From Bdellovibrio sp. SKB1291214 (GTDB lineage: Bacteria > Bdellovibrionota > Bdellovibrionia > Bdellovibrionales > Bdellovibrionaceae), in the NCBI RefSeq assembly GCF_002209355.2, contig NZ_CP106855.1, forward strand, positions 2,046,001 to 2,110,000: a stretch of 64,000 nt of DNA. The letters run 5' to 3'. The translations under genes and the position numbers were made by a program. Of this stretch, positions 38,002-42,740 are shown one piece after another (the stretch's first letter is position 1; every line of letters begins with the position of its first letter). Under the pieces are notes generated by a model. The model was not told the origin of the DNA, searched no databases, and worked only from the letters and a program-made list of their open reading frames with translations.

Positions 38002-39438
38002 TTAGGGAGTATCAACATTAATGATCTGAATGCGGGCATTGCGAGCGATTCGTAAACTGTTGCTGCCTTTTTTCAAAAACTTCAAGACGTCTTTGGCATT
38101 TGTGACCGCTTGTTTATTGACGTCTAAGATCACATCACCAACAGCCAAGCCACCTTTGCTGGCCGCGGAGTTTCGTTCTGTTTCGATCACGATCGGTTGC
38201 TTCATATCCTCTGGCAAACCCCATTCGCTGCGAATAGAAGGAGTCGGGTCGATGATCGTAAAGCCCAGCTTGAAAGGAGCTCTTTGGCCGTCGTATTTTT
38301 TGATCTCTAACTTTTTGCCTTTGGCGTCCTCGGGGCGGTCAGCAACGACGACAGCTAAAGAAATTGTTTTTCTGTCGCGGATAATTTTAGCCGTTGACGA
38401 TTTCCCAATCGGAGCATCACTGACGGCATCTACAAGGCTGAGCGAGCTATCAATTTTTTTACCGTTAAATTCTGTCACGATATCGTAAATCTTAAGTCCC
38501 GCCCGAGCAGCGGGGCCCCGTGGATCCAGTTGCGTGATCACCGCACCACTTTGATCACCCATTCCCAGATAGTCCGCAGCCTCAGGATCTAGATCGCCCA
38601 AGGCGGCACCAATATAACCACGAGCAATGCGACCTTTGGATTCAAGTTGCGGGATCAATGCTTTAACTTCGTCGATAGGGATCGCAAAACCGATACCCTG
38701 AGCGCGAGCATCAATCGCGGAGTTCACACCCACAACCAAGCCCTTCGTGTTCACAAGGGGACCACCCGAGTTACCTGGGTTGATAGAAGCATCTGTTTGG
38801 ATCAATGGAATTTTATTGATCTCGGCAATACCACGACCCTTAGAAGACACAATACCCTTAGACATCGAGTGCCCGTGACCAAACGGATTTCCGAAAGCGG
38901 CAACCCATTCACCAACTTCTAGGTCTTTAGAGGAACCAAGAACAGCGACAGTCAATTTTGTCTTAGGTTTGATTTTGATCAGTGCGATATCTGTACGCTC
39001 GTCGCTACCAACTAACGTCGCTTCGTACAGGTCTTTCGAGTCTTCAGACAGTTGAACTTTGATCTGGTCTGCGCCCGCGATCACGTGATTGTTGGTCACG
39101 ATCAAACCATCTTCACGAATAATAAAACCAGTTCCCAATCCCATCATCTGAGGGCGTTGTTGCTGTTGCGGAGGTTGCTGCATTTTAAAGCCGTAAAGCT
39201 GTTCCAACATATCAAGCATCGGATCGCGACCGCGTGGCATGTTTTTTGGAATCGCCGTTGTCGAAATGTTTACGACGGCTGGGTTGATAGCTTTACCCAA
39301 CTCCACAAAAAGATTTGCTGGAAGCGAAGGTCCCAGGTTCATTTTTGGAGGATCTTTGGGAAGAGTCGATTGCTGAGCTTGAGATTGGTAGCTGACCGTG
39401 AGGGAGGCCGCTAGTAGAAGGAATAAATACTTCTTCAT
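38002..39438 (-). CDS. DegP/HtrA-type periplasmic serine protease
   Basis: The signal peptide ends SQAQ-Q. The trypsin-like protease domain holds the full triad: H118 in TNNHVIAG, D150 in RTDIALI and S224 in NPGNSGGPL. Two PDZ domains follow (GRIARGYIGAALGDLDPEAA onward, and a second near EWGLPEDMKQPIVIE). A Gln/Pro-rich loop at 87-98 (MQQPPQQQQRPQ) lies in the position of the LA loop. The family degrades or refolds misfolded envelope proteins and forms cages. Whether it is DegP, DegQ or DegS-like cannot be set from sequence alone; two PDZ domains and no membrane anchor favour DegP/DegQ. Confidence 0.93.
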   Translation of the reverse strand: MKKYLFLLLAASLTVSYQSQAQQSTLPKDPPKMNLGPSLPANLFVELGKAINPAVVNISTTAIPKNMPRGRDPMLDMLEQLYGFKMQQPPQQQQRPQMMGLGTGFIIREDGLIVTNNHVIAGADQIKVQLSEDSKDLYEATLVGSDERTDIALIKIKPKTKLTVAVLGSSKDLEVGEWVAAFGNPFGHGHSMSKGIVSSKGRGIAEINKIPLIQTDASINPGNSGGPLVNTKGLVVGVNSAIDARAQGIGFAIPIDEVKALIPQLESKGRIARGYIGAALGDLDPEAADYLGMGDQSGAVITQLDPRGPAARAGLKIYDIVTEFNGKKIDSSLSLVDAVSDAPIGKSSTAKIIRDRKTISLAVVVADRPEDAKGKKLEIKKYDGQRAPFKLGFTIIDPTPSIRSEWGLPEDMKQPIVIETERNSAASKGGLAVGDVILDVNKQAVTNAKDVLKFLKKGSNSLRIARNARIQIINVDTP

Positions 39439-39504
39439 AAAAACACTTCTCCTTTAACCTTCGAACGAAGCCGTTCGATGCAAATACACAGTATCAAAAA
39501 TAAT

Positions 39505-39536
39505 AAACGCGCGACAGTCTAAGACTGCGCGCGTTT
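39505..39536 (-). terminator. Terminator of the DUF1844 gene
   Basis: Long stem AAACGCGCG / CGCGCGTTT (39505-39513, 39528-39536) continued by CAGTC/GACTG and a short loop; the minus strand continues with a T-rich stretch (TTATTATTTTTG). It lies 14 nt after the stop at 39551. Confidence 0.75.
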
Positions 39537-39550
39537 AGATTTAAAAACGA

Positions 39551-39799
39551 TTAAACCGAAACAAACTTCATTTGCAGGTCGTTAATTAGATTATCTAAAA
39601 ATTGGGACTCATCAGCAGAAAGATTGCCCTTGGTTTTTTGCTGCAAAACCACCAATAGGTCGATGTTAAATCGAGCCATATTTTTATCTTTAGAAGTTTT
39701 TCCAGTTTGTGGATCTGGTGCCAAACCCATGGCCATTACCGACGCAGAGGCTAGGGACATGATTAATACTGATAATGAAGCTTCCATTTTTTCTTGCAT
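39551..39799 (-). CDS. DUF1844 family protein
   Basis: An 82-residue protein with the DUF1844 signature: SVLIMSLASASVMAMGLAPDPQTGKTSKD, then FNIDLLVVLQQKTKGNLSADE and LINDLQMKF. The family occurs in delta-proteobacteria-like groups and others; its function is not known. The first third is hydrophobic and could insert into or lie on a membrane. It is alone on its strand between the HtrA-type protease and the HtpX-like gene. Confidence 0.88.
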   Translation of the reverse strand: MQEKMEASLSVLIMSLASASVMAMGLAPDPQTGKTSKDKNMARFNIDLLVVLQQKTKGNLSADESQFLDNLINDLQMKFVSV

Positions 39800-39844: not shown

Positions 39845-40657
39845 TTAGATAGGATAATAACCCATAAGCTTCTGCAAACGCGTCTCGATGGGCGGATGCG
39901 ACTTTAAGAATAAATTCTTTTGTTTAAAGCCTTCAGGATTCACAATAAATAAGTGACTTGTGCAAGCGGGGATTTCCAAAGGCTGAGTCTGTGACAGGCC
40001 TTCCAGTCTCCATAAAACTTCACCCAATGGATGGCGGTTGTTTAAAAGCTCAGAAGCCATCAAATCATTTTCAAAAAACGATTTGTCGCCCACGACCGCT
40101 TTGATGATCAGCCAGCCCACGGGGGACAAAAGCGGCATAAAAAAGTGCAAACGATAAGGCAAGAAAGAATCTAAAAATTGACCTAACCCCACGATTGAAT
40201 TTGCCAGGGTTGAACTGACGCTGAATGCAAAAGTATCAAGGCGGCGGATGTGACAAAGTTGATGAGCCACCACAGCTTCCAACTCTTTAGAATTTAACTT
40301 TTGCAAAAGCCCTAAGGTGAATCCCAAAGAACCATGTTTCCAAGAGTGACCAACGCAAAATGCATTCGCCGACGAATGTGGTGTCACAAAGACAGCGGGC
40401 GCCGGCATCCCAAGCTGATTCGACATGCGATCCACCATATCTAAAACACCCCAAGCATCTTGGCCTTTTAAACGTTGCGCGCGAAGTTTTGATAGAACGC
40501 TATTTTCGCCGTAAAAGAACACGATGAAATTTAAAAGGAGTGCTAACAAAAAGCCAATGATCAATCCCAGGCGCTCACCGAATTGGTAACCCAATACCAG
40601 AAGTGCCAGTGAGGTCGATAGGATGAAAATCCAAACTTTCGTGCTCGTATTTGCCAT
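39845..40657 (-). CDS. HtpX-like M48 family protein with altered catalytic site (pseudoprotease)
   Basis: ATG 40657 is chosen because HtpX proteins typically begin with the first membrane helix (here about 7-24). A second helix follows at 30-49. The domain matches M48/HtpX across its length (PAVFVTPHSSANAFCVGHSWKHGSLGFTLGLLQKLNSKELEAVVAHQ). The zinc motif HExxH reads H132-Q-L-C-H136: the catalytic Glu is Gln (CAA, 40259-40261). The third zinc ligand region, normally REFxAD, reads SFFEND (about 40110-40060). It should not cleave peptides. A longer start (TTG 40729) is possible but lacks support. Neighbour: moxR-bat operon, divergent. Confidence 0.85.
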   Translation of the reverse strand: MANTSTKVWIFILSTSLALLVLGYQFGERLGLIIGFLLALLLNFIVFFYGENSVLSKLRAQRLKGQDAWGVLDMVDRMSNQLGMPAPAVFVTPHSSANAFCVGHSWKHGSLGFTLGLLQKLNSKELEAVVAHQLCHIRRLDTFAFSVSSTLANSIVGLGQFLDSFLPYRLHFFMPLLSPVGWLIIKAVVGDKSFFENDLMASELLNNRHPLGEVLWRLEGLSQTQPLEIPACTSHLFIVNPEGFKQKNLFLKSHPPIETRLQKLMGYYPI

Positions 40658-40876: not shown

Positions 40877-41869
40877 GTGAGCGAAGTTGATATCATGGCA
40901 TTAAACGCCGCGATCAAACAAGAAAGTCAATTCATCGACAAGATGATGACCGAGATCAACAAAGTTGTGGTCGGACAAAAAGAAATGGTCGAAGGGATCA
41001 TGATGGGATTGTTGACGGGTGGTCACATCCTGCTTGAAGGTGTTCCCGGTCTTGCAAAGACATTGACGATTTCAACAGTGTGTAAATCTATTTCCTTAGA
41101 TTTCCAACGTATTCAGTTCACTCCCGATCTGTTGCCAACAGACTTGATCGGTACGATGATCTTTAATCCAAAATCTGGCGAATTCGCTCCTCGTAAAGGT
41201 CCTATCTTTACGAACATCGTTTTGGCCGACGAGATCAATCGTGCCCCTGCGAAAGTTCAATCGGCATTGCTTGAGGCAATGGCAGAAAAGCAAGTAACCA
41301 TTGGTGAAGAGTCCTATAAACTTGCCAATCCATTCCTGGTTCTTGCAACTCAGAATCCATTAGAGCAAGAGGGAACATATCCACTTCCTGAAGCACAGAT
41401 GGACCGTTTCATGTTTAAGATCAATGTGGTTTACCCACATAAAGGTGAAGAGCTCGAGATCTTAAATCGTATGGGTACGAACGAAAAGCCGGTTGTAAAC
41501 CCGGTGATCTCTCGCGAAGATTTGTTGCGTGCGTCCGAACGTGCAGATCAAATCTATGTCGATAATAAAATCAAAAATTATATCGTAGAAATCGTTATGG
41601 CTTCCAGAAAGCCTGCAGAGTACGGCTTGTCACGTATCGCAAACTTGATCAACGTGGGCGGCTCACCGCGTGCGACGATCTGTCTGTTCCGTGCAGCGAA
41701 AGCTCACGCTTTCTTACGTGGCCGCGGTTACGTGACAGCTGAAGACGTAAAAGCAATTGCCTACCACGTGATGAGACATCGTTTGATTCTGACTTACGAA
41801 GCTGAGGCAGAAAATATTAAGTCTGATGATGTGATCAAAGAAATCTTGAGCCAAGTCGAGGTTCCATAG
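40877..41869 (+). CDS. moxR: MoxR-type AAA+ ATPase
   Basis: GTG 40877 follows gggagg. A 330-residue AAA+ protein with Walker A GVPGLAKT (about 57-64), Walker B VLADEINRAP, sensor 1 LATQNPLEQEGTYPLPEAQMDRF and sensor 2/arginine regions SPRATICLFRAAKAHAFLRGR. MoxR ATPases act as chaperones for proteins with von Willebrand factor A domains. It leads the seven-gene cluster with DUF58, two VWA proteins, a TPR lipoprotein and BatD. Expected cytoplasmic, acting on the membrane-bound BatA/BatB. Confidence 0.95.
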   Translation: MSEVDIMALNAAIKQESQFIDKMMTEINKVVVGQKEMVEGIMMGLLTGGHILLEGVPGLAKTLTISTVCKSISLDFQRIQFTPDLLPTDLIGTMIFNPKSGEFAPRKGPIFTNIVLADEINRAPAKVQSALLEAMAEKQVTIGEESYKLANPFLVLATQNPLEQEGTYPLPEAQMDRFMFKINVVYPHKGEELEILNRMGTNEKPVVNPVISREDLLRASERADQIYVDNKIKNYIVEIVMASRKPAEYGLSRIANLINVGGSPRATICLFRAAKAHAFLRGRGYVTAEDVKAIAYHVMRHRLILTYEAEAENIKSDDVIKEILSQVEVP

Positions 41870-41870
41870 G

Positions 41871-42740
41871 ATGGGATTGCCTCCAGAGGTCCTAAAAAAG
41901 GTCAAACTTTTAGAGTTGAACACAAGAAAACTTGTGAACAACCTTTTTGCAGGCGAATACCATACCGCCTTCAAAGGGCAAGGTATGACCTTTGCGGACT
42001 TCCGTGAGTATGTTCCGGGCGACGACGTGCGCTCGATTTCCTGGCCGCTGACGGCGCGCACAGGAAAAACTTTTATTAAAACATTTGAAGAAGAGCGTGA
42101 GCTGACCCTGATTATCGCAGTCGATATCAGTGGCTCCAGTGATTTCGGAACGGGACCTTACTTTAAAGGTGAAGTGATGACTCATATGGCAGCCTTGCTG
42201 GCGTTTTCTGCAGTGAAAAACAACGACCAAATTGGATTGTTGTTATTTAGTGATCAGGTCGAACACTTTGTTCCGCCGAAAAAAGGCCGTGGGCACGTGC
42301 AACGTTTGCTGCGGGATCTGTATTATTTCAAACCTAAAAGTCACAAAACGAAACTTTCTAACGGCTTTAGTTTTCTGCAAGGGGCGTTGAAAAAGCGTGC
42401 GACCATTTTCGTGTTCAGCGATTTTATGGACGAGGGCTTTGATCAAAGCTTACGCCTGCTGGGCAGAAAGCATGACGTTGTGGCTTGTGTGGTGAACGAT
42501 GCTGCCGAATATTCATTGCCAAGTATGGGAGTGATTGAAGTGCAGGATGCAGAAAGTGGCGAAGTATTAACTGTCGACACGTCCTCTGCAGGTTTTAGAA
42601 AAGAATATGAGCAAGCAGTTCTAAAGCGTAAAGAGTCTCGCGATAAGCTGCTTCGCAAATCGCAAGTGGATCGTGTGGATGTAAAATCCAGCAATGATTT
42701 CGTAGATCCTCTTGTGGCGTTTTTTAAGAAGAGAAAATAA
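41871..42740 (+). CDS. DUF58 family protein
   Basis: A 289-residue protein that starts 1 nt after moxR. The front has LLELNTRKLVNNLFAGEYHTAFKGQGMTFADFREYVPGDDVRSISWPLTARTG, the defining DUF58 segment. A degenerate VWA-like fold follows with VDISGSSDFG near 77, which keeps a DxSxS-like metal site. DUF58 proteins always pair with MoxR ATPases in Bat-type operons, and their biochemical role is unknown. The stop overlaps the next gene by one base. Confidence 0.92.
   Translation: MGLPPEVLKKVKLLELNTRKLVNNLFAGEYHTAFKGQGMTFADFREYVPGDDVRSISWPLTARTGKTFIKTFEEERELTLIIAVDISGSSDFGTGPYFKGEVMTHMAALLAFSAVKNNDQIGLLLFSDQVEHFVPPKKGRGHVQRLLRDLYYFKPKSHKTKLSNGFSFLQGALKKRATIFVFSDFMDEGFDQSLRLLGRKHDVVACVVNDAAEYSLPSMGVIEVQDAESGEVLTVDTSSAGFRKEYEQAVLKRKESRDKLLRKSQVDRVDVKSSNDFVDPLVAFFKKRK

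Follow-up and report, generated by a model that had tools for sequence, protein, structure and literature searches.

The locus and its neighbours

The window, by which we mean the whole stretch of 64,000 nucleotides analysed, corresponds to positions 2046001-2110000 of a 3.68-Mb Bdellovibrio genome whose nearest named relatives are also Bdellovibrio. The open reading frame of interest, here called pHtpX, and the features around and within it are as follows (window positions):

38002..39438, minus strand: HtrA/DegP-type serine protease whose PDZ domains were matched in two stretches (Pfam, synteny)
39504..39537, minus strand: hairpin resembling a terminator (-22.6 kcal/mol, z -4.6), with a U-rich tract after it, in the interval from DUF1844 to htrA
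39551..39799, minus strand: DUF1844 protein of 82 aa, directly downstream of pHtpX, a conserved neighbour (Pfam, synteny)
39845..40657, minus strand: pHtpX, an HtpX-derived pseudoprotease of 270 aa (reading frame, Pfam and NCBIfam profiles, orthologues)
39848..39862, minus strand: C-terminal GYYPI of pHtpX, the order-specific ending [YF]P[ILVMA]-COOH (order-wide comparison of C-termini)
40064..40081, minus strand: SFFEND, residues 193-198, in place of REFxAD (translation, alignment A1)
40250..40264, minus strand: HQLCH, residues 132-136, in place of the zinc-binding HExxH (translation, orthologues)
40514..40636, minus strand: predicted membrane anchor, an N-terminal hydrophobic hairpin, residues 8-48 (hydropathy)
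40877..41869, plus strand: presumed MoxR-type ATPase, divergent from pHtpX, first gene of a MoxR-DUF58-vWA-like operon
41871..42740, plus strand: presumed DUF58-type protein, second gene of the divergent operon

The last two products are named after the usual content of such MoxR operons. The first-pass annotation gave no strand for pHtpX; its reading frame is on the minus strand, with the ATG at 40657 and the stop at 39845. The genes of pHtpX and DUF1844 are separated by 45 bases and run in the same direction, and they look like a two-gene transcription unit here because the hairpin and its U-rich tract separate DUF1844 from htrA; a consensus terminator scan did not list the hairpin at 39504-39537. 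The catalytic His, Asp and Ser are all present in the HtrA of the window.

The arrangement, with DUF58 and MoxR divergent from pHtpX, DUF1844 and HtrA (DUF58<-MoxR, pHtpX->DUF1844->HtrA), is a block found nearly throughout the order. MoxR and/or DUF1844 lies alongside in 94 of the 95 distinct order-level proteins, as judged from the fetched stretches, usually together with HtrA, and MoxR and DUF58 are adjacent in almost every member of the class. DUF1844 is conserved as a neighbour of HtpX or pHtpX across classes, and a literature search for this domain returned one incidental mention.

An M48 protein without its catalytic residues

pHtpX matches PF01435 with 58.7 bits (E 8.8e-16, Pfam cut-off 20.3), and its top NCBIfam model is HtpX PRK03001 (E 3e-39, residues 7-265), with the best score of 134.9 bits lying far below the HtpX equivalog cut-off of 369. 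Profile-profile comparison (hhalign) with canonical HtpX gave an E of 4.8e-20, and there was a PDB match to the HtpX fragment 3cqb. This significant match over the domain places pHtpX in the homologous M48 family, in agreement with what had been proposed from the first reading, at the level of profiles: the fold assignment is made from sequence profiles alone, and an AlphaFold model from an alignment of only five close sequences had a pLDDT of 42.9. A weak profile match was also obtained to Ste24/ZMPSTE24, likewise M48 (PDB 4il3, E 6.9e-7), which differs from pHtpX in being an active, larger, seven-TM protease of the CAAX type.

The two changes reported in the first-pass annotation, Gln encoded by CAA at the catalytic Glu codon and SFFEND in place of REFxAD, were both borne out by translation. 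Codon 133 (40261-40259, in minus-strand reading) is CAA, within A-HQLCH-I, and Phe194 occupies the position of the third zinc-ligand Glu. The protein has neither the HExxH motif, which supplies the general base and zinc ligands of an active M48 peptidase, nor the third-ligand Glu of [RK]E[FY]xAD. Across the 39 sequences of alignment A1, Asp198, Arg260 and Gly65 do not vary, which suggests that the core fold has been kept.

Two further M48 proteins are encoded in the same genome. One (L067) is lipoprotein-like and carries HEIAH, and the other (L066) is the second, complete htpX that had been sought, a canonical PRK05457-type HtpX with intact HEVAH and REFRAD that scores above its equivalog cut-off, so an absence of any other HtpX from the genome is ruled out. 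This E. coli-like type belongs to the same superfamily as pHtpX but lies at a separate locus and in a separate deep clade; the two types share about 25% identity, and both clades are starred in the gene tree. Canonical HtpX was detected in 57 of the 60 relatives searched, and both its HExxH and third-ligand motifs are intact in all 49 canonical-type sequences collected, repeats of one gene included. The three genomes with pHtpX and no canonical match at E 1e-30 (G003, G050 and G054) are draft assemblies, in which absence is uncertain. A trade-off in which the syntenic copy stays intact only where canonical HtpX is missing was ruled out, as both are intact in the f11, f27 and G040 genomes; the canonical gene of G040 has an open frame of 306 codons with HEVAH and REFRAD, and its "1 TGA" flag is no break.

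Conservation of the loss in Bdellovibrio and the order

pHtpX was found in every Bdellovibrio genome searched, with 69-93% identity. The catalytic Glu is missing in all 23 Bdellovibrio sequences compared, each with Gln in its place, and the two motifs follow the patterns [HY]Q[LIM]C[HQ] and [ST]F[FY]END. The alignment of orthologues thus confirmed the Glu loss, and a sequencing error or lone mutation at the CAA codon is ruled out. One orthologue (L032, G004) reads YQLCQ and has lost both His, from which we conclude that the two His are not required in pHtpX.

Beyond the genus the motif is lost in several ways. Other members of the same family carry HQ[LIV]CH and relatives, family f4 has YQ[LIV]A[ST], families f2, f7 and f10 have xE[ILMV]A[KR], and in others no trace of the motif is left. 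Only one of the 95 distinct order-level proteins, L042 of genome G040 (1991-2818), retains HExxH (HEMAH, with SEYEAD). No premature stop was present in any matched orthologue. Identity to the Bdellovibrio sequence across the order is 20-36% for pHtpX, against about 46-61% for canonical HtpX; this much faster evolution indicates that constraint on the pHtpX sequence is weaker outside Bdellovibrio.

The gene is cleanly missing, with its neighbours kept, in at least three genomes, G048, G077 and G130 (L203, L206 and L210), where gaps of ~100-130 bases separate MoxR from DUF1844. Six other genomes (G033, G039, G041, G057, G068 and G125) have at this site a reading frame of similar size that is barely or not recognisable; these frames of 219-319 codons (L204, L205, L207, L208, L211 and L212) are probably extreme divergents of the pHtpX gene. 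Given the three losses and the six unrecognisable frames, pHtpX is not indispensable everywhere.

Some observations stand beside this picture. Genome G003, a draft of 550 contigs with 4% contamination, holds two different pHtpX copies (L024 and L007/L214), probably from mixed strains. Four non-syntenic HtpX-like proteins of the same phylum (L108, L112, L113 and L114, from f13 and f24) have the motifs ARGLCR, GRQMTY, GRELTA and ARELCL; a Pfam scan of two of them gave no match, and they are possibly an independent pseudo-M48 family. A search of viral contigs gave no relatives.

Ancestry at the locus

Within the class, a sister order (f11, L109-L111) has the identical block with intact HE[IL]SH and RE[FY]xAD, and in the phylum's other classes (L096-L106) an intact HtpX adjoins DUF1844, usually followed by HtrA and with no MoxR. 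HExxH and [RK][ED][FY]xAD are intact in all 14 of these homologues, three from the sister order and eleven from other classes, and DUF1844 is adjacent in each except L100, whose contig ends first. In a gene tree built without the motif columns, the inactive clade is nested with starred support among the intact PRK03001-type sequences and is separate from canonical HtpX. NCBIfam likewise ranks PRK03001 first for pHtpX, for the intact L111 and L098 and for L042, and PRK05457 first for L066. The intact syntenic homologues, the nesting of the inactive clade and this ranking show that the locus once carried an active PRK03001-type HtpX, which was inactivated within Bdellovibrionales. The PRK03001-type HtpX (NCBIfam NF002826), the direct ancestor at the same locus on this evidence, shares with pHtpX its length, N-terminal hairpin, M48 domain and C-terminal HP..E.RI..L, whereas pHtpX has lost the HExxH Glu and the third-ligand Glu, has less hydrophobic TM3 and TM4, and has a new C-terminal [YF]P[IL] end.

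The number of inactivations was approached with two trees. In the short gene tree a single inactivation was not rejected (AU p=0.58). In a tree of MoxR and HtrA a single inactive clade was rejected (AU p=0.003, for a group defined after inspection of a first tree), and the intact L042 grouped with inactive members of f3, f8 and f9 with support 99*. If the neighbours share the history of pHtpX and catalysis was never regained, this is suggestive of at least two independent losses. The first lesions point in the same direction, because they differ: in the Bdellovibrio family E changed to Q with both His kept, while in f2, f6, f7 and f10 the Glu was kept and the second His lost.

Remodelling was found in addition to loss. 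The ending [YF]P[ILVMA]-COOH is present in 72 of the 95 order members, the intact L042 included, and in none of the 15 HExxH-bearing homologues outside the order. HtpX has four TM segments, with TM3 and TM4 placed between HExxH and the third ligand. The N-terminal hairpin is plain in pHtpX, and median hydropathy in the Bdellovibrio family (f1) is 1.21 for TM3 and 1.53 for TM4, against 2.00 and 2.29 in intact homologues. L042 combines intact motifs with a YPL tail and no TM3 peak, and thus looks like an intermediate; as it already has the tail and lacks the peak, remodelling of the tail and TM3 seems to have preceded catalytic loss. The history of pHtpX, as far as these comparisons trace it, is one of remodelling and not of simple loss.

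Selection

Within Bdellovibrio the median dN/dS of pHtpX is 0.035, from the 10 pairs with usable dS, the pairs being few since dS saturates. The other genes compared gave medians of 0.034 (MoxR), 0.067 (canonical HtpX), 0.103 (DUF1844) and 0.108 (HtrA). The most conserved stretch of 15 residues opens with the final His of the former HExxH site (HIRRLDTFAF...). The replacement residues Q133, C135 and F194 are themselves conserved, since they are fixed through synonymous codon changes: in Bdellovibrio Q133 is encoded by CAA and CAG, C135 by TGT and TGC (12:11) and F194 by TTT and TTC (12:11).

A decaying pseudogene is ruled out for Bdellovibrio by the omega of ~0.035. The order-wide loss, the fixed locus, this dN/dS and the intact L066 in the same genome give strong support to the initial proposal of a selected, non-catalytic HtpX. 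pHtpX belongs to a conserved lineage with an active ancestor, has lost its catalytic residues and is under purifying selection, as is expected of a pseudoenzyme, and it is almost certainly a selected, non-proteolytic derivative of HtpX.

Proposed role and alternatives

The retention across the order of a protein that has lost its catalytic residues suggests that pHtpX has a useful job other than proteolysis. HtpX itself is a protease of the membrane whose catalytic domain lies in the cytoplasm, and it acts on misfolded envelope proteins (PMC9263693). In pHtpX the catalytic residues are gone but the hairpin and the old substrate region are kept under strong selection, and we therefore favour, at somewhat under even chances, a role for pHtpX in quality control at the inner membrane, as a client-binding adaptor or holdase anchored in the membrane. 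It would still bind HtpX-like clients, that is misfolded or unassembled inner-membrane proteins, contacting them by way of its membrane hairpin and of what was once the substrate groove but without cutting them, and would hold them or pass them to a partner. Such a hand-over would most likely involve DUF1844 together with the C-terminal tail, remodelled to [YF]P[IL], and any degradation would be done by FtsH or intact HtpX. DUF1844 is the prime candidate partner because it is the most constant neighbour, although that it partners pHtpX directly is still a fairly long guess. A broader history is a fair possibility, though less likely than not, in which HtpX at this locus had from the beginning a job that needed no catalysis, remodelling came first, proteolysis was then lost at least twice, in separate lineages of the order that retained the protein, and a family of membrane proteases turned in parallel into one of client-binding adaptors.

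A likeness can be drawn to the rhomboid pseudoproteases iRhom and Derlin, which are also relatives of membrane proteases that lost catalytic residues while the protein was kept. iRhoms gained new regulatory regions, comparable to the remodelling of pHtpX, and are thought to bind clients via the old protease-substrate interface (PMC6451368). They differ in that their fold and mechanism are unrelated (serine intramembrane protease superfamily) and that the well-studied examples are eukaryotic, not bacterial.

It is less probable, though worth considering, that pHtpX is a dominant-negative or decoy regulator that pairs with intact HtpX or with FtsH-associated membrane complexes and, in competing for substrates, dampens proteolysis. 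The coexistence of canonical HtpX in nearly all relatives searched and the retained substrate-edge region SANAFCVGHSWK are in accordance with this, but the deep divergence of the two HtpX types argues against it, as do the three draft genomes that have pHtpX and no canonical match.

Regulation of the neighbouring HtrA, in which [YF]P[IL]-COOH would bind a PDZ domain of HtrA and activate or localise it, is improbable in spite of the conserved adjacency to a PDZ-bearing HtrA and the conserved, order-specific C-terminus. HtrA-type proteases are periplasmic and HtrA is kept in the three genomes that lost pHtpX, which makes direct action on it less likely. The C-terminal domains of HtpX face the cytoplasm (PMC9263693), and even if the weaker TM3 and TM4 could permit an odd number of crossings, Asp198 and Arg260 are conserved throughout A1, which argues that the C-terminal part remains packed against the cytoplasmic domain. 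Moreover, a terminator-like hairpin precedes htrA, and the intact, tail-less HtpX ancestor already adjoined DUF1844 and HtrA. Among the chaperone, decoy, HtpX-regulator and HtrA-regulator jobs, the weakest candidate is the last, acting directly on HtrA.

There is a similarly small chance that pHtpX has a structural or assembly role with no relation to proteolysis, such as scaffolding the divergent MoxR-vWA (Bat) system. The MoxR-DUF58 block adjoins it in almost every class member, but other classes have HtpX-DUF1844-HtrA with no MoxR beside it, and the older link is thus to DUF1844. A redundant HtpX duplicate slowly decaying after a second HtpX took over is very improbable: the clear losses, the unrecognisable frames and the fast evolution outside Bdellovibrio would fit such a relic, but not the low omega in Bdellovibrio, the matched orthologues free of premature stops, the nearly order-wide retention or the gain of a conserved C-terminus. 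That pHtpX is still a protease with an unusual His/Cys/Gln-based active site is hardly credible, for although both His are usually kept and the Cys is invariant in Bdellovibrio, there is neither general base nor third ligand, and the orthologue without either His is otherwise 69% identical overall.

Pseudoproteases are a known kind of protein, and protease families in general often include degenerate homologues. In a literature search with most subscription journals outside its scope, no order-wide HtpX pseudoprotease with intact same-locus ancestors was found; HtpX together with pseudoprotease or "catalytically inactive homolog" gave no match, HtpX with Bdellovibrio gave one incidental match, and the main text of a Bdellovibrio Tn-seq paper does not mention HtpX. 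Pfam scoring calls the pHtpX proteins peptidases, a label that would be misleading for protease work in predatory bacteria and that is corrected here. If our reading is true, pHtpX would be a membrane pseudoprotease that arose from HtpX and extends across a bacterial order, with active ancestors still present at the same locus in sister lineages, and roles of HtpX other than cutting would become open to comparative study. If inactivation happened repeatedly, it would follow that the role without proteolysis is the older or more important one.
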